Shown here piece after piece: positions 4,855 through 19,623 of a DNA stretch of 20,277 nt; within the stretch, counting starts at the first letter, position 1, and every line of letters begins with the position of its first letter. A model generated the notes under the pieces. That model saw only the letters and a program-made list of their open reading frames with translations, was not told the origin of the DNA and did not search any database. Position numbers and translations under genes: made by a program. Origin of the DNA: a virus; IMG/VR virus record IMGVR_UViG_3300020404_002380, positions 1-20,277 of that record; one strand, given 5' to 3'.

Positions 4855-6168
4855 ATGGCAACATTAAGTTCAGGAGATACTCTTTCATTAAATAATTTAG
4901 CGGGAGCAAATGGTGTAACACAAAACTCTAATGTATCACTAGGTACTATTAAAGGAGGTTCACCAAGTGGAGGTGATAATATTACTTTATCTTCATTTGC
5001 TGTAAATTCTATTGATTCAATGAGTGGATTTACATATGCAGTAGAAAGTACAACAGAAACATATACAATAGGTTCAACAGGAGGAGGTTCAAATTTCGGA
5101 ACACATAATGCAGTTTATAGTGGAAATGTAACTTGGACAATTCCAGTAGGTTCAAAAATATCATTAAATACTAATAGTGGATTATCTGCAACATTTGATG
5201 TAGCAGCAATGGATAATTCAGATGGAGTATTAGATACTCAAATAACACATACTATTAGAGGAGTTTTTGCAGATGGATATAACGACCACATTGGTTCAGC
5301 GAATGGATATGGTGTAAATAAAGATAAAACAGTTTATTCAATTGATACTTACGATGGTAACACAACAGGATTATGTTTAACATCAGATACACCAGTTACA
5401 TTAGATGATGGTTCAACGATTCCAATAGGAGATGTAGAAGAAGGAATGAAATTACAAGGATATTCTCTATATGGATTGGGAGATTTTGAAGATTCTGAAT
5501 ATATGCAATGGCGTTCTAATAATTTAAATGCAGAAAAGGTTGAAGTAGAAGTTGAAAATGCAATTTTTTCATTTGCAAGTAAATATTACGATATAAATTA
5601 TGGAGATGTAAAATGTACATCAGAACATCCTTTCCTAATATTAGAAGGTGGTGAATATAGATTTAAAAGAGCTCACTTATTAAATGAAGGAGATATTTTA
5701 ATAAAAGGTAATGATAATCTTACAGAAGAAGTAACGATTGAAAAAATTGAAGTTGTTGAAGAAGATGTAGAAATAGTATCTTTAGATGTATCAAATACAG
5801 ATACATATATAGCTAATGGTTATATAACACACAACAAAGGAACAAATTCACATACAGATTTTGATGGACCAACTGCACCAACAAGTGTATCATACTCACA
5901 TCCAAATTTATCATGGAGTGGAGGTACTGCAGATACTGATTCTGGTGGTATTACTGCTTATGATATTCAAGTAGATAATAATTCTAATTTTAGTTCACCA
6001 ATAATCGATGAAACTAATTGGAATGCAACAACAATGCAATTATCTGGTAATATTGCAGCTGGTACATATTATGCAAGAGTAAGAAACGTACAATCTGGTT
6101 TGAGGTCAGCTTATCAAACTGTTGGAGGTAATAATACTGCTATTACAGTAGCTTCATGGCCAGCATAA
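4855..6168 (+). CDS. Virion-cluster protein with Hint (intein-like) domain and FN3-like C-terminus
   Basis: A 437-aa protein in three parts. Residues 1-173 are Gly/Ser/Thr-rich and beta-like; they start MATLSSGDTLSLNNLAG, a style seen in small marine phage structural proteins. Residues 174-327 form a Hint fold: C174 opens block A (CLTSDTPVTLDDGS), block B carries the TxxH motif (T255, H258 in CTSEHPFLIL), and block F ends in Y-I-T-H326-N327. Residues 328-437 begin K-G-T and run into a fibronectin-III-like domain (GPTAPTSVSY, GGITAYDIQVD, GTYYARVRNV). The residue after HN is Lys, not Cys/Ser/Thr, so canonical splicing is unlikely. From Hint biochemistry I infer self-cleavage at one or both junctions, as in bacterial-intein-like domains. 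Its place between the fibre and tail genes suggests a virion part. The Hint call is strong; the role of the host protein is unknown. Confidence 0.82.
   Translation: MATLSSGDTLSLNNLAGANGVTQNSNVSLGTIKGGSPSGGDNITLSSFAVNSIDSMSGFTYAVESTTETYTIGSTGGGSNFGTHNAVYSGNVTWTIPVGSKISLNTNSGLSATFDVAAMDNSDGVLDTQITHTIRGVFADGYNDHIGSANGYGVNKDKTVYSIDTYDGNTTGLCLTSDTPVTLDDGSTIPIGDVEEGMKLQGYSLYGLGDFEDSEYMQWRSNNLNAEKVEVEVENAIFSFASKYYDINYGDVKCTSEHPFLILEGGEYRFKRAHLLNEGDILIKGNDNLTEEVTIEKIEVVEEDVEIVSLDVSNTDTYIANGYITHNKGTNSHTDFDGPTAPTSVSYSHPNLSWSGGTADTDSGGITAYDIQVDNNSNFSSPIIDETNWNATTMQLSGNIAAGTYYARVRNVQSGLRSAYQTVGGNNTAITVASWPA
5374..5835 (+). other. Hint / bacterial-intein-like domain, HN-Lys junction
   Basis: Codons for residues 174-327 of the protein at 4855-6168. 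First residue Cys (TGT, 5374-5376), block-B TxxH, and penultimate His plus terminal Asn are all present; the +1 residue is Lys. At 154 residues it is mini-intein sized. The middle (about residues 205-245) is too short for a homing endonuclease and shows no LAGLIDADG or HNH motif. Confidence 0.82.
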
Positions 6169-8996: not shown

Positions 8997-9488
8997 ATGG
9001 CAGAAGTATTAGAATTTAACGATATGTTTTATACCAACTTCGAACCGAAGATGAAGAATAGGTTCATCATGGAAATCGATGGTATCCCTTCATATCTTAT
9101 AAAAACAGCAAACAGACCTTCAATACAATTTGAAACTGTTACACTAGACCACATTAACGTTAAAAGAAAACTTAAGGGAAAAGGTGAGTGGCAAGATGTA
9201 GAGATTACTCTATATGACCCAATCGTTCCTTCAGGAGCTCAAGCGGTAATGGAATGGGTGAGATTATCTCACGAATCTCTAACTGGTAGAGATGGATATG
9301 CAGATTTCTATAAGAAAGATATCCAATGTTACCTATTAGGACCAGTTGGTGATAAAATTGAACAATGGACTCTTAAAGGTGCATTTATCAATAATGCAGT
9401 ATTTAATGATTTAGATTGGGCAAATTCAACTGACCCAGTCGAGATTTCATTAACATTATCTTATGATTACGCAGTTTTAGAATTCTAA
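8997..9488 (+). CDS. Tail tube protein (gp19-like)
   Basis: A 163-aa protein, the same length as T4 gp19. It shows the family's opening (EPKMKNRFIMEIDGIPSYLIK), the middle block KRKLKGKGEWQDVEITLYDP, and the C-terminal half with AFINNAVFNDLDWANSTDP and the final strand DYAVLEF. These are the beta-barrel subunits whose hexameric rings form the inner tube that crosses the envelope when the sheath contracts. The gene directly follows the sheath, as in T4, P2 and Mu. It has its own strong Shine-Dalgarno and a candidate promoter in front, and an intrinsic terminator behind. A separate transcript would suit a protein needed in very high copy. The call is very secure. Confidence 0.96.
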   Translation: MAEVLEFNDMFYTNFEPKMKNRFIMEIDGIPSYLIKTANRPSIQFETVTLDHINVKRKLKGKGEWQDVEITLYDPIVPSGAQAVMEWVRLSHESLTGRDGYADFYKKDIQCYLLGPVGDKIEQWTLKGAFINNAVFNDLDWANSTDPVEISLTLSYDYAVLEF

Positions 9489-9515
9489 TACATATTCAAC
9501 ATATTTTTATAAAGG

Positions 9516-9544
9516 AAAAAGTTCTCTTAGTGAGAACTTTTTTT
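9516..9544 (+). terminator. Intrinsic terminator after tail tube gene
   Basis: GTTCTC (9521-9526), a 5-nt loop and GAGAAC (9532-9537) form the stem. The stem is extended by A16-20 pairing with T38-42, and a 7-T run ends it. It begins 28 nt after the tube stop codon. Confidence 0.9.
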
Positions 9545-9606: not shown

Positions 9607-10371
9607 ATGGCAAATTACGATTTTCCTACGGAAATAATAGATTTACCTTCAAAAGGTAAATGTTACGAAGAATCAAACCCATTATCAAAGGGTAGTGTTG
9701 AAATCAAGTATATGACAGCAAAAGAAGAAGATATACTTGCATCACAAAATTTGATAAGGAAGGGGGTGGTACTTGACAAACTCTTCGAATCAATTGTGGT
9801 TCAAAAAGATATTAAAGTTGACGATATTTTAATCGGTGATAAGAATGCTATTTTATTAGCAACTCGTATTTTAGGATATGGTAAAGATTACAATGTAGAT
9901 GTGATAGACCCTTTTACAGGTGAAAATCAAAAAGTTGTAATAGACCTTTCAAAAGTACAAATCAAAGAATCAAACAATGACTTATTTAATTCTAGTAATA
10001 GATATGAATTTGAATTACCTATTGCAAAAAAGAAAGTTATTTTTAAGTTATTAACTCATAAAGATGAGAAAGATATAAGTAGTGAAATACAAGCACTACA
10101 AAGAATACAAAAAGGAGAAACTGTTTCTCAAGATATCACTACTCGTTTAAGATATATGATACAAGAAGTTGATGGAAAGAGTGATACAGGATTCATTAAT
10201 AACTTTGTAAAAAACAATCTATTAGCTAGAGATTCAAGAAGCTTAAGAAATTATGTAAAAGATTTATCTCCAGATTTAGATTTAACATATCAGTTTACTT
10301 CTGATATAACAGGTGAAAAGGAGGCACTTGACATACCTTTAGGTGCCGGGTTTTTTTACCCTACCGACTGA
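9607..10371 (+). CDS. gp26-like baseplate/tail assembly chaperone, frame-0 product
   Basis: A 254-aa protein of the T4 baseplate gp26-like family, longer than T4 gp26 (208 aa). The N-terminus has the diagnostic IDLPSKGKCYEESNPLSKG and then IKYMTAKEEDILAS; the middle includes VDVIDPFTGENQKVVIDLS; it ends IPLGAGFFYPTD, a Phe-Phe-aromatic-Pro ending typical of the group. It lies between tube and tape measure, the place of the tail assembly chaperone in long-tailed phages. The last 29 nt overlap the ORF at 10343-10579 in the +1 frame over a TTTTTTT run, and the frame-0 stop is TGA. If ribosomes shift at the run, the long product has about 323 residues (248 + FF + 73). No Shine-Dalgarno is seen before the ATG. 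The family call is good; chaperone function is inferred from position and overlap. Confidence 0.85.
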   Translation: MANYDFPTEIIDLPSKGKCYEESNPLSKGSVEIKYMTAKEEDILASQNLIRKGVVLDKLFESIVVQKDIKVDDILIGDKNAILLATRILGYGKDYNVDVIDPFTGENQKVVIDLSKVQIKESNNDLFNSSNRYEFELPIAKKKVIFKLLTHKDEKDISSEIQALQRIQKGETVSQDITTRLRYMIQEVDGKSDTGFINNFVKNNLLARDSRSLRNYVKDLSPDLDLTYQFTSDITGEKEALDIPLGAGFFYPTD

Positions 10372-10579
10372 TTACTCGATTCAACTTCATAATCAGATTT
10401 GGGAAATGGTTAACTATGGTAATGGATTTACTTGGTCAGAAGTTTATACCATGCCAATCCATTGGAGAAGGTTCTATTTCAAGAAGCTAGCAGATGCTAA
10501 AAAGAAAGAAAAAGAACAATACGATAAATCAAACAAAAAAAGTGGTCCAAGAGGACCAAATGTAAGAGTGAGGAAATAG
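10343..10579 (+). CDS. Second-frame extension of the tail chaperone (E'/T-like)
   Basis: The frame opens after a TAG at 10340-10342 and encodes 73 residues downstream of the T-run: LPTDYSIQLHNQIWEMVNYG, then FTWSEVYTMPIHWRRFYFKK, then a Lys-rich tail ending GPNVRVRK. The block with aromatic residues, TMPIHWRRFY and a charged tail resembles the short ORFs that follow gp26-like genes in marine myoviruses. Independent initiation is weakly supported: GTG at 10343 has no well-spaced Shine-Dalgarno, and the ATG at 10406 would drop conserved-looking sequence. I therefore favour expression as a frameshift fusion with the 9607 gene, as for lambda GT and P2 E+E'. The stop TAG sits in the loop of the terminator at 10568-10596. 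Confidence 0.8.
   Translation: MPGFFTLPTDYSIQLHNQIWEMVNYGNGFTWSEVYTMPIHWRRFYFKKLADAKKKEKEQYDKSNKKSGPRGPNVRVRK
10351..10357 (+). promoter_or_regulatory. Candidate frameshift site, TTTTTTT
   Basis: Frame 0 reads GGG-TTT-TTT-TAC-CCT-ACC-GAC-TGA. The overlapping ORF reads TTT-TTT-ACC-CTA. tRNA-Phe on the second TTT can slip one base forward and still pair with TTT, giving the +1 frame; a -2 slip or transcriptional slippage on the T-run gives the same frame. It is the only position in the 29-nt overlap where re-pairing is clean. An AAAGGAGG sits at 10316-10323, about 27 nt upstream, probably too far to act as a classic stimulator. A homopolymer sequencing error is the main alternative. Confidence 0.55.
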
Positions 10580-10596
10580 TTCCTCACTTTTTTTTT
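10568..10596 (+). terminator. Strong intrinsic terminator overlapping a stop codon
   Basis: GTGAGGAA (10568-10575), loop ATAG, TTCCTCAC (10580-10587), then nine T. The 8-bp GC-containing stem is perfect, and the loop includes the TAG of the ORF ending at 10579. Confidence 0.95.
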
Positions 10597-10643: not shown

Positions 10644-10862
10644 ATGTCCAAAAATAAAATAGATGAATTAAACATGGTCTCTCGTTTCTTTGGAGATGTA
10701 TTTGATAATTTAAAAAATGGTACTGCTGATAGAATTATTAAACAAGTAAAAAAGCAAGGTATGCCAAAAGATGTTATTAAATCCATCGAACAACTTAACA
10801 AAGATTCAGAGAAGTTAAGACAAACTTTACAAAAACTTAAAAAGTACAACAAGAAAAAATAA
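10644..10862 (+). CDS. Small helical protein upstream of tape measure
   Basis: A 72-aa, Lys-rich, helical protein I cannot name: VSRFFGDVFDNLKNGTADRI, then KQGMPKDVIKSIEQLNKDSE, ending in a basic run (LKKYNKKK). A Shine-Dalgarno-like AAAGGAAA lies about 10 nt before the ATG. It is the first gene after the terminator and motif pair at 10568-10620, and the tape measure follows 13 nt later, so the two are surely cotranscribed. A partner of the tape measure or of the chaperone complex would fit the position, but nothing in the sequence proves it. The compact gap and codon style support a real gene. Confidence 0.75.
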   Translation: MSKNKIDELNMVSRFFGDVFDNLKNGTADRIIKQVKKQGMPKDVIKSIEQLNKDSEKLRQTLQKLKKYNKKK

Positions 10863-10875
10863 CGAAAGTTAAACA

Positions 10876-13245
10876 ATGGCTGGCGAAAGAAGTAGATTAC
10901 AAGTTCTTAAGGAAATAGAAGCTCTTGAAAAGAAGATAGCGGATTTCAAGATTAAGAACGATATGCGTCTTAAAAAGAGTAGGGAACAAGAAAAGAAAGA
11001 CCTTATACAACTTAGAGATTTACTAAAAGAATCCAATGATATAAAATTAAAAAATCTAACTACGTTAGCCAATGAAGAAAAAAGTATAGGAAATATATCT
11101 AGTTCCTATGGAGACTTCCAACAAAGTCAACAAGAAGTATTAGATATCTCAAAAGCGGCTGGTGATTTAGGACAAGAAGAACTTCAACTTATTACAAGTG
11201 CACTTCAAAGTTCTAGAGATTTATCAGACTTAACTGCTGAAGATAAAGTACAGATTGAACAAAAGAATGCTGAATTCCTTGCATCCCTAGATGCACTTTC
11301 ACAAATTGATGGAATTAATGAAGAAATTTTAGAAAAATTAAAACAACAAAATGGTATTGCAGGTACATATGCCGCAAAAACTAAAGAACAAAAACAAGTA
11401 TTAGATAGAAGTACACAAGCAAATGAAGAACTAAAAGGAAAAATGCAAGCATTTTCTGAAAATGTTGAAACTGCTTTACATCATCTTAAAAGTGCATATG
11501 GTGTAATGGGATTAATGCTTATTGTAGGAGGTAAAATACTAGATAAGTTTTATGAAACTGGAAAAACACTTGGTGAAGTAGGAGCAGGAATATCTAGAGC
11601 AAATGTTCAAGCTAGTATATTATCACTTGTATTTGAAGGTGCGGCAGAATCTTCATTAGATTTAGCAAATAACTTAGGTGGAACTGAAAAAGTTTCTGCA
11701 ATGCTCAGATTAAATACTTTACTCATAGCAAATAATATGGGTATTAGTAATAGTGAATCTGCACAATTAGTAACAAGTTTTACATTATTAAACCAAGGTT
11801 CATCAGATACCGCTGCTAATATGGCGGAAACTGCAAGAGCTTTTGCAAAAGCTAATAATATTCCTATTGCTAGTATGATGGGAGATTTAGCAAAATCTTC
11901 AGAAGAATTTGCCTTATTTGGTGGTCAAGGTGGAAAAAATATTATTGAAGCAGTTGGTGCTGCTAAAAAGTTGGGTGTTGAAATGGCTCAAATATCTGGT
12001 ATAGCTGATAACTTATTAGATTTCGAATCATCTATTACTAAAGAATTAGAACTATCTGCAATGTTAGGTAGGAATATTAATTTATCAAAAGCTAGACAAT
12101 TAGCATTTGATGGTGATTTAGCAGGAGCAACACAAGAAACTCTTAAACAATTAGGTGGTATTGCCGAGTTTGAGAGAATGAATTATTATCAGAAGAAACA
12201 AGCAGCTGATTTATTGGGTGTTTCTGTTGCAGAAATGCAAAAGATGGTTACCAATCAAGGAGCTTTAAATGATTTATCAGCAGTTCAAACTTCAGAATTT
12301 TCAGCAGCTGCAGATGGATTATCAATGTTAGCTGGAAAATTTGGACCAGGATTACTAAAAGCTGCAGGTGGGTTAGCTCTTCTAAAGTCACTTGCAAGTG
12401 GAGCTGGTGGTGTAGTAGGTAAGGTAGCCAAAAGTGTTGGTAAGGGTATGGAAAGTATGGGTAGTGCTGTTGGAAATACAATGAAAAAAGTTGGAGGAGG
12501 TATTAAAGGTTTCTTAGGTAATCTAGGAAAAGGAATAGGTGCATTCTTAAGAGGAGTAGCGTTTGGATTAAAAGCTATAGCTAGTCCAAAGGTATTACTT
12601 GGTTTAGGAGCAATTACCTTAGCTTTTATTGGTATAGGATATGCATTAAAACTTATGGCACCGGCTATTGAAGCAGTAGGTAGTGTAATGAATGCAGTAT
12701 TTGGAGGATTAACAGGTATGTTAGGTGTAATAACATTAGAAAAAGCGGCGGCTATGGTTGCACTTGGTCTTTCATTTAATATGTTAGCACTTGGTATAGG
12801 AGCACTTGGAATAGCTGCACTATTGGGTGGTGGAAAAGTTGTAAGTTTTATAGAAAAAGTTGGTGCAATTAATACTTCTTCTTTATCTAAAAATGCAATG
12901 GCAATTAATAGTTTTGCAGAGGGTGTAGGAAGATTAAATCAAGAAATAAAAGGTTTAGATATTGAAAAATTAGCTGCTCTTGAAGAGGTTTCATTAAGTT
13001 TATCAGTAGGTGCGGCAGTATCAGGAATTGGAGCTTCTATTGGTGGAATGATTGATGCAGCATCAAATTCATTATTTGGTGAAGGTGGAACTGATATACA
13101 GACAAAAATGCATAATGAATTAGTATTAATTAGAGAACATTTAGCAACACCAAGAGTTGTACAAATTGATAGAGAAAAAGCAGGTAAAGAATTAGCAAAA
13201 TCAACAGATGCTGAAGCAGCAAATGTATCAAGTATGGATAGATAG
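10876..13245 (+). CDS. Tail tape measure protein
   Basis: A 789-aa protein. Residues 1-65 are charged coiled coil (LKEIEALEKKIADFKIKND and on); a further helical Gln/Lys/Glu-rich part runs to about 195. Around 208-240 sits a hydrophobic patch (GVMGLMLIVGGKILDKF). Residues 500-560 are Gly/Lys-rich, and 569-655 hold long hydrophobic stretches (LLGLGAITLAFIGIGYALKL and MVALGLSFNMLALGIGALGI), as expected of the membrane-inserting part of tape measures. The C-terminus has MHNELVLIREHLATPRVVQ, which may bind the baseplate. Position after the tail chaperone is diagnostic. At the usual ~1.5 angstrom per residue, the tail would be very roughly 115-120 nm (inference). No lysozyme or peptidase motif was seen. 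The start lacks a clear Shine-Dalgarno. Confidence 0.88.
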   Translation: MAGERSRLQVLKEIEALEKKIADFKIKNDMRLKKSREQEKKDLIQLRDLLKESNDIKLKNLTTLANEEKSIGNISSSYGDFQQSQQEVLDISKAAGDLGQEELQLITSALQSSRDLSDLTAEDKVQIEQKNAEFLASLDALSQIDGINEEILEKLKQQNGIAGTYAAKTKEQKQVLDRSTQANEELKGKMQAFSENVETALHHLKSAYGVMGLMLIVGGKILDKFYETGKTLGEVGAGISRANVQASILSLVFEGAAESSLDLANNLGGTEKVSAMLRLNTLLIANNMGISNSESAQLVTSFTLLNQGSSDTAANMAETARAFAKANNIPIASMMGDLAKSSEEFALFGGQGGKNIIEAVGAAKKLGVEMAQISGIADNLLDFESSITKELELSAMLGRNINLSKARQLAFDGDLAGATQETLKQLGGIAEFERMNYYQKKQAADLLGVSVAEMQKMVTNQGALNDLSAVQTSEFSAAADGLSMLAGKFGPGLLKAAGGLALLKSLASGAGGVVGKVAKSVGKGMESMGSAVGNTMKKVGGGIKGFLGNLGKGIGAFLRGVAFGLKAIASPKVLLGLGAITLAFIGIGYALKLMAPAIEAVGSVMNAVFGGLTGMLGVITLEKAAAMVALGLSFNMLALGIGALGIAALLGGGKVVSFIEKVGAINTSSLSKNAMAINSFAEGVGRLNQEIKGLDIEKLAALEEVSLSLSVGAAVSGIGASIGGMIDAASNSLFGEGGTDIQTKMHNELVLIREHLATPRVVQIDREKAGKELAKSTDAEAANVSSMDR

Positions 13246-18855: not shown

Positions 18856-19623
18856 ATGAATTATCTTACAGAAGAAGAAAAACAACAATTACTTTTTGAT
18901 TGGAGATACAAAGGATTTTCTACAATAGAATTACTTAGTGAAGAAGAATGTGATGAATTGAATGAAGAATTAGAAAAACTTCGTAAGCAAAGACAAGAAA
19001 CTACAAAAGAAGATGGTAGTGAATGGGGAGATTATGACCCATTTATGTATCCACACAAATTATCAGAAAAATTTGAAAAAATATTTTCTCATCCTAAAAT
19101 TATAGAAGCAACAGAATTTTTACTAAATGGTAAAATAAGTGGAACACAAACTTGGTGTTATTTCAAACCACCAGGTCAATTAGGTAGAGATATGCATCAA
19201 AATGCATTTTATACAGGATGTAAACATAATGAATATTTAAACATTACTGTTGCACTAGATAATCACGATAAAGAAAATGGTGCAGTATGGAATTATGAAG
19301 GTACACATAGATTAGGTTTACTACCAATTGAAATAGATGAAGAAAGGGTAAAAACAAATCCTAAAAATTGGTCTAATGAAAGAGGTAAACCTTGTGTAAT
19401 GCCTGAAGGACATGATTTCAAAAAGGTAGAAGGTACTACTAAAAAAGGTAATGTAGTTTTATTACACTCCCATACCGTTCATGGTTCAGAAACAAATCAT
19501 TCAAATAGATTTAGAAGAAGTTTTTTAGCAGGTTATGCACTAGAAGGAACTGATTTTAAAAAAGGTGGACACATGAAAAGAGAACCAATTGATATATACA
19601 CTATGTATAAAAAATATTGGTAA
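18856..19623 (+). CDS. Phytanoyl-CoA dioxygenase (PhyH)-like protein with HQN metal motif
   Basis: A 255-aa protein. The layout is that of PhyH-type Fe(II)/2-oxoglutarate oxygenases: GFSTIELLSEEECDELNEEL (20-39) at the start, TQTWCYFKPPGQLGRDMHQN (97-116) around the proximal metal site, NITVALDNHDKENGAVWNYE and GTHRLGLLP (129-157), and a distal site KKGNVVLLHSHTVHGSETNH with NRFRRSF (H209 as expected iron ligand; R220/R221 near the 2-oxoglutarate carboxylate). The proximal H114-x-[D/E] is H114-Q115-N116, so the usual carboxylate ligand is Asn; the codon AAT at 19201-19203 is unambiguous. It may be inactive, metal-altered or halogenase-like, or the Asn may be normal in this subgroup. It lies outside the structural operon with its own candidate promoter. 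PhyH-like genes are common auxiliary genes in marine phages; the substrate is unknown. Confidence 0.85.
   Translation: MNYLTEEEKQQLLFDWRYKGFSTIELLSEEECDELNEELEKLRKQRQETTKEDGSEWGDYDPFMYPHKLSEKFEKIFSHPKIIEATEFLLNGKISGTQTWCYFKPPGQLGRDMHQNAFYTGCKHNEYLNITVALDNHDKENGAVWNYEGTHRLGLLPIEIDEERVKTNPKNWSNERGKPCVMPEGHDFKKVEGTTKKGNVVLLHSHTVHGSETNHSNRFRRSFLAGYALEGTDFKKGGHMKREPIDIYTMYKKYW

Follow-up and report, generated by a model that had tools for sequence, protein, structure and literature searches.

A conserved +1 frameshift site in a T4 gp26-like phage gene points to a tail-assembly chaperone pair of the G/GT kind

Results

A gp26-like gene and an overlapping +1 frame in the tail module

The analyzed DNA is a 20,277-nucleotide viral stretch (IMG/VR record IMGVR_UViG_3300020404_002380, hereafter the window), in which a plus-strand open reading frame (ORF) of 254 amino acids (9607–10371) matches the T4_baseplate family PF12322 (3.5e-8, 33.8 bits, for a curated cut-off of 24.5) and the baseplate hub family phrog_150 (1.4e-11) in profile searches. 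Its 3′ end reads GGT GCC GGG TTT TTT TAC CCT ACC GAC TGA, and a second plus-strand ORF (10343–10579), in the +1 frame relative to the first, overlaps it exactly at the heptanucleotide TTTTTTT (10351–10357, plus strand). At this site, the 0-frame codons TTT TTT TAC would give way to ...TTT TTT ACC in the +1 frame, and the 0-frame stop TGA (10369–10371, plus strand) lies 18 nt past the first base of the site. If one T is skipped, the predicted product is a fusion of 323 amino acids (37.2 kDa) reading ...GAGFF-TLPTDYS..., whose predicted junction peptide has the window form GAGFFTLPTDYS.... The 254-residue protein would thus be the short, G-like product, and the 73 residues encoded in the +1 frame (TLPTDYS..., 10358–10579, plus strand) would form a T-like C-terminal domain. 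The ORF coordinates and the sequence bear out the +1 overlap at TTTTTTT that had been noted in the original prediction, and the 323-residue fusion proposed there is supported by translation as well as by the comparative evidence given below.

Two hairpins resembling intrinsic terminators frame the locus on the plus strand, one 5′ of the gp26-like gene (9514–9544; −11.7 kcal/mol, z −5.1) and one spanning the stop of the +1 ORF (10564–10591; −14.6 kcal/mol, z −5.1). Because of these, the gp26-like ORF and the +1 ORF look like one transcription unit.

The upstream neighbor is a tail tube protein, gp19 (8997–9488, plus strand; PF06841, 1.8e-8; phrog_4542, 5.2e-29). Downstream, a plus-strand ORF of 789 amino acids (10876–13245), which has no family match, is by its position and size the probable tape measure protein, and Flavobacterium phage immuto has a gene annotated as tape measure in the equivalent position. 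The fusion gene is placed between the tail tube gene and this candidate tape measure gene, as in G/GT systems. Downstream of the fusion gene and ahead of the tape measure candidate lies a plus-strand ORF of 72 amino acids (10644–10862) with no convincing family; the ORF at its place is about equal in size in Mel-JY01 and shorter in immuto.

Elsewhere in the window, positions 3–2108 encode a long repetitive fibre-like protein with a C-terminal Peptidase_S74 intramolecular chaperone (PF13884, 1.2e-15), and a phytanoyl-CoA dioxygenase (PhyH, 3.6e-21) at 18856–19623 is an auxiliary gene ending the tail module. A tail-region ORF of 437 amino acids (4855–6168) contains an intein-like (Hint) domain running from CLTSDTPVTLDDGSTIPIGDVEEGM... 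to ...NGYITHN, with a match to PF14890 that falls under the cut-off (8.9e-7); its product may be a structural protein that splices or cleaves itself.

Conservation of the site and of the +1 domain

TTTTTTT is frequent by chance in the AT-rich window (20 matches counting both strands) and a run alone means little; the case for recoding therefore rests on comparison with relatives, in which the conservation of the run goes beyond chance. We gathered 196 related loci (179 distinct) from scans of viral contigs, from MAG contigs and from cultured phages, a set whose members are mutually non-independent, though many are well diverged, and in which the hosts of the IMG/VR and MAG contigs are uncertain. 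Its cultured phages and genomes with the +1 arrangement are Mel-JY01, immuto, SP-15, LIS04, GXN1, RM378, and LR756508.

All readable contigs among the 80 viral contigs of the initial scan have Phe-Phe near the 0-frame end and a stop within 24 nt, and their +1 frame after Phe-Phe runs into one domain (xLPxxYSxxLHxQIFEL..GNGFTxxxVYxMPxHLRxFYYKKL). Across the 196 loci, this domain is ~60–95 amino acids long and is kept in all readable loci, the exception being two loci that have it as a separate gene. The junction carries a TTT codon with T or C after it (TTT-Y) in 196/196 loci. Aligning relatives had been put forward in the original prediction as one of its checks; the T-run or TTT-Y motif and the +1 offset proved conserved throughout, and one continuous ORF, the artifact considered there, was found in none of these relatives. 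The 0-frame stop lies 18 or 24 nt past the site in 73/75 non-redundant relatives and 21 nt past it in the remaining two.

Codon choice and substitution rates were also compared. TTT makes up 0.99–1.00 of the Phe codons at the junction pair, against 0.52–0.91 at other conserved Phe columns, and overall Phe codon use in the loci is 77% TTT (619:186). For pairs aligned without gaps, dN/dS comes to 0.16 in the +1 frame, compared with 1.5 and 1.47 in the remaining frames; the median over all alignable pairs, which includes gaps and saturation, is 0.64, the gapless value being the informative one. By this measure, the +1 frame only is under purifying selection. A programmed frameshift close to the 3′ end of the first ORF is, on this comparative evidence, conserved.

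Direction of the slip

The +1 loci carry the site variants TTTTTTT, TTTCTTT, TTTCTAT, TTCTTTT, TTTTTTC, TTCTTTC, and TTTTTTA, all of which contain a TTT-Y at which tRNA-Phe could re-pair one base forward. The same frame would be reached, with one extra Phe, by a −2 shift in which the P-site tRNA-Phe slips back two bases, and such a shift is possible in the window and in 139/196 loci (site positions 2–4 being TTT or TTC). However, −2 re-pairing is impossible in the other 57/196 loci (TTTCTTT, TTTCTAT, TTCTTTT, TTCTTTC), whose domain, position, and frame are equal. The longest T-run at these 57 sites is 3 or 4 bases, and loci without a long T-run still hold the +1 relation; taken together with the barred re-pairing, the shift is therefore +1. 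The direction can thus be settled from sequence for the 57 loci, and in the window by parsimony. The original prediction had left the choice between +1 and −2 open; the former is the part that stands, and a −2 shift is improbable. For TTT CTT T, the variant of immuto, two slip positions are conceivable, TTT C and, as in prfB, CTT T.

The base before the site is strongly constrained. A T precedes the +1 site in 1/75 non-redundant loci, where 36.7 would be expected, and it precedes TTTTTTT in 0/121 sites. Within the +1 set, a preceding T is confined to sites that open with the codon TTC and therefore do not form T TTT TTT. In the window, the base at 10350 is G, hence the −1 heptamer T TTT TTT (of the form X XXY YYZ) is absent. 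This heptamer is the commonest form in G/GT-type frameshifts, though it does not strictly define them. One MAG contig (locus L204) reads AAC TTT TTT TTC, eight T followed by C, still with the +1 domain, and breaks the seven-T rule.

Start codons, two-gene relatives, and slippage by the polymerase

Alternatively, the +1 ORF might be an independent gene translated from GTG 10343 or from an unusual start, which could occur in hosts whose initiation needs no Shine-Dalgarno sequence. GTG 10343 is the sole start-like codon within the window overlap and is also present in close relatives, but 52/165 loci have no ATG, GTG, or TTG up to site+25, in line with the remark in the original prediction that the second ORF lacks a good start signal. 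In some loci, the first three quarters of the domain contain no such codon, and the first one lies at +217 and +223 in L029 and L043, respectively. Cleanly separate genes, which the original prediction had named as evidence against recoding, do exist in two relatives (L182 and L187), where the domain has an ORF to itself that begins with an ATG directly past the stop; these are precisely the loci without the slip site (TTC TTG and TTC CTT in its place). As read from their sequences, they are a natural control in which the site was lost and the domain has an ATG of its own. A separate gene would also leave unexplained both the conservation of TTT-Y and the avoidance of a preceding T, and we regard it as very unlikely.

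About equally unlikely is transcriptional slippage, in which RNA polymerase would omit one U (or add two) on the T-run and the edited mRNA would be translated. The seven-T run with a hairpin just upstream, found in the window and near relatives, speaks for such a mechanism, but the +1 relation is intact in the 57/196 loci with a T-run of only 3 or 4 bases. Moreover, the +1 loci avoid a T ahead of the run, whereas the −1 clades described below always have one, and this avoidance fits a slip of the ribosome and not of the polymerase. Finally, an assembly or sequencing error in one continuous gene, homopolymers being frequent sites of indel errors, or a decaying gene, can be given practically no weight, as the offset is equal in independent metagenomes and in finished genomes of phages, even at sites that lack a homopolymer, and the +1 part is under purifying selection. 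As general explanations, −2 slippage, a separate gene, polymerase slippage, and assembly error were all rejected by comparison with relatives, leaving a programmed +1 ribosomal frameshift.

RNA signals around the site

In prfB experiments, UUU slips well in the +1 direction when it stands ahead of a stop (PMC10885494). The window shares the +1 slip with prfB (PMC10885494), whose CUU U is similar to the CTT T found as a variant in the immuto clade; in contrast to prfB, the A-site codon here is TAC/TGG and not a stop, and there is no Shine-Dalgarno-like stimulator. Indeed, Shine-Dalgarno-like sequences upstream of the site were not enriched (15/75 loci versus 90/375 controls), nor did downstream RNA folding show a clear excess (mean z −1.07 at the site, −0.09 to −0.81 elsewhere in the loci).

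A hairpin, GGCACTTGACATACCTTTAGGTGCC, lies at 10323–10347 of the window, three bases 5′ of the T-run, and is kept in close relatives (GGCAC...GTGCC); in other relatives, a shorter ATYCC..GGRAT hairpin is possible upstream of the site. All five pairs of the upstream hairpin (P-x-G codons) can form in 34/75 loci, and covariation at the free pair is marginal (p about 0.05). Among these signals, none could be established as a stimulatory element.

Relatives with a −1 site: cyanophages and jumbo phages

In cyanophage-like contigs, the run is preceded by a T in 80/80 cases (50 expected), which makes a canonical −1 site. The RaK2-type jumbo phages that we fetched have a T before the run in 10/10 cases, with a −1 site at the equivalent place, and PA5oct, Atu_ph07, LR756511, and the loci L192 and L193 also have the T and are of the −1 type. 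The heptamer is T TTT TTC in the −1 relatives and T TTT TTT in CM1. In the cyanophage-like contigs and the RaK2-type jumbo phages, the −1 site (T TTT TTC/T) adds a domain homologous to the +1 domain.

Cyanophage S-BM1 has a −1 ORF that overlaps gp26 at AGT TTT TTC, and the last part of this ORF is the gene labeled 'T4-GC_12 gp51'; as annotated, this gp51 is a truncated form that begins at an internal ATG. The gp26 and 'gp51' (T4-GC_12) of the Kyanoviridae thus have their protein pair and its junction in common with the window, as seen in S-BM1 and in 80/80 related contigs, whereas they use the canonical −1 site T TTT TTC and the window a +1 site. In public records (L228:3540–3752 and L217–L226), the second ORF is omitted or begun at internal ATGs, and its N-terminal part is therefore missing from cyanophage and jumbo phage records.

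Links to T4 gp26 and gp51

The window ORF shares its family with T4 gp26 and gp51 (PF12322, phrog_150). The two T4 proteins both match these profiles and align with each other at an hhalign probability of 99.6%, and by sequence they are paralogs, gp51 being ~45 residues longer than gp26. A search for structures resembling the gp26-like model in BFVD returned the gp26 of SP-15 (E 4e-18) and a 'Baseplate hub assembly protein, bacteriophage T4-like', a fold thus shared with T4-like hub proteins.

The extra C-terminal region of T4 gp51 appears, via the cyanophages, to be homologous to the frameshift domain. The cyanophage −1 domain aligned with the C-terminus of gp51 at 96.9%, and the full cyanophage fusion aligned with gp51 at 98.9% over 233 columns. 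The window +1 domain reached 94.2% against the cyanophage domain and 94.9% against the jumbo phage domain, where reversed controls gave at most 1.1%; its direct match to gp51 is weak (16%), and the link passes through the cyanophages. Positions 227–280 of phrog_150 match the S-BM1 −1 ORF directly (E 6.7e-4); with HMMER, phrog_150 extended into the domain in the cyanophage only, and not in the SP-15 or jumbo phage fusions.

T4 lacks the frameshift site and has two paralogs instead, gp26 as the short form and gp51 as the long form, and differs from the window in that its short and long forms are two genes without a frameshift. Two full copies are present in the Straboviridae that we checked (T4, SFHK24, and RB43) and one in the frameshifting phages that we checked. 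The family would therefore make its short and long forms by three routes: a +1 slip in the window clade, immuto, Mel-JY01, SP-15, and RM378; a −1 slip at T TTT TTC in cyanophages and RaK2-type jumbo phages; and two paralogous genes in T4.

Structure models

The 0-frame protein and the +1 domain were modeled separately with AF2. The model of the 0-frame protein (m444864eed21e) has a pLDDT of 90.6, and its best structural match in the PDB after re-alignment is the HK97 tail assembly chaperone 2ob9_B, a weak one (Z 5.0, rmsd 4.2, 95/104 aligned) for which Foldseek alone gave an E of 2.8. We give this match weight because the chaperone role had been proposed beforehand. A second structural match, 5ir0_B (Z 4.1), is ORF19 of a Vibrio cholerae PICI-like element, perhaps, to judge from this weak likeness, a tail-chaperone mimic borne by a phage satellite. 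The +1 domain was modeled as three helices (pLDDT 80.7), and its fold search gave no informative match. A PDB sequence search gave no match, and neither part matched lambda-type chaperones in sequence.

Discussion

Our results very probably describe a programmed +1 frameshift at TTT-Y that gives a G/GT-like tail-assembly chaperone pair of the T4 gp26/gp51 family. The frameshift itself is, on comparative grounds, near certain, and the chaperone role of the window pair is likely. Most ribosomes would end at TGA 10369, presumably yielding the 254-residue gp26-like protein, and some would slip one base forward as tRNA-Phe re-pairs from UUU to UUU or UUC, giving the 323-residue fusion, whose C-terminal domain is basic and helical. 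Like lambda gpG, the short form would cover the tape measure protein; like lambda gpGT, the long form, made in smaller amounts, would bring in subunits of the tail tube. Neither form would need to occur in the virion.

We read the pair as chaperones because of the position of the gene, the short and long products, the conserved frameshift, and the T4 literature, in which gp26 and gp51 are listed as hub assembly chaperones, gp51 is required yet absent from the particle, and the role of both in hub assembly is called unclear (PMC3004832). In lambda (G/GT), P2 (E/E′), and Mu, two overlapping ORFs likewise lie between the genes for the tail tube and the tape measure, with the second ORF entered by a frameshift near the end of the first and with short and long products (PMC5009743). 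The lambda-type shift is −1, whereas the one described here is +1, and the 0-frame protein, unlike lambda-type G, belongs to the T4 gp26 family, its likeness to known chaperones being limited to the weak HK97 fold match. A 'very likely +1' frameshift has been described for the haloarchaeal myovirus HSTV-2 (PMC5009743), which by this published description shares the +1 slip with the window. Phage 0305phi8-36 encodes short and long tail chaperonin forms as two genes, without a frameshift (PMC2147016), the layout proposed here for T4; they were described from secondary structure, charge, and position (PMC2147016).

A wider proposal, which we find reasonably probable, is that a single G/GT-like chaperone gene with a frameshift was ancestral to T4 gp26 and gp51. 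The frameshift would then be a feature of T4-like phages in general, its direction having switched between −1 (T TTT TTY) and +1 (not-T TTT TTT T) through the base before the run; T4 would have swapped the frameshift for a gene duplication, and gp51 would be the long-form tail chaperone. The connection between T4 baseplate gp26 genes and the G/GT chaperone system, raised in the original prediction, has comparative support.

G-T frameshifting in tailed phages is already known (PMC5009743). In the open-access literature, most subscription journals lying outside this scope, we found no published description of a gp26/gp51 frameshift. Nor did that literature contain the +1 version at TTT-Y, the −1/+1 switch within one family, or the reading of T4 gp26/gp51 as its split form.

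The C-terminal part of the gene is absent or truncated in the annotations of immuto, SP-15, LIS04, S-BM1, and RaK2. The family offers a natural experiment on what determines the direction of a slip along a T-run. Frameshifting of the G-T kind has been called general 'except T4' (PMC5009743), and the two-gene form of T4 may explain why T4 seemed exempt from a near-universal tailed-phage frameshift. The tail-chaperone frameshift would thereby be extended to T4-like phages broadly, in both directions, and gp26 and gp51 gain a concrete candidate role as the short and long tail-assembly chaperone forms. If this is true, the 'T4 exception' vanishes, and gp51, whose function has long been obscure, would be the long-form tail chaperone.
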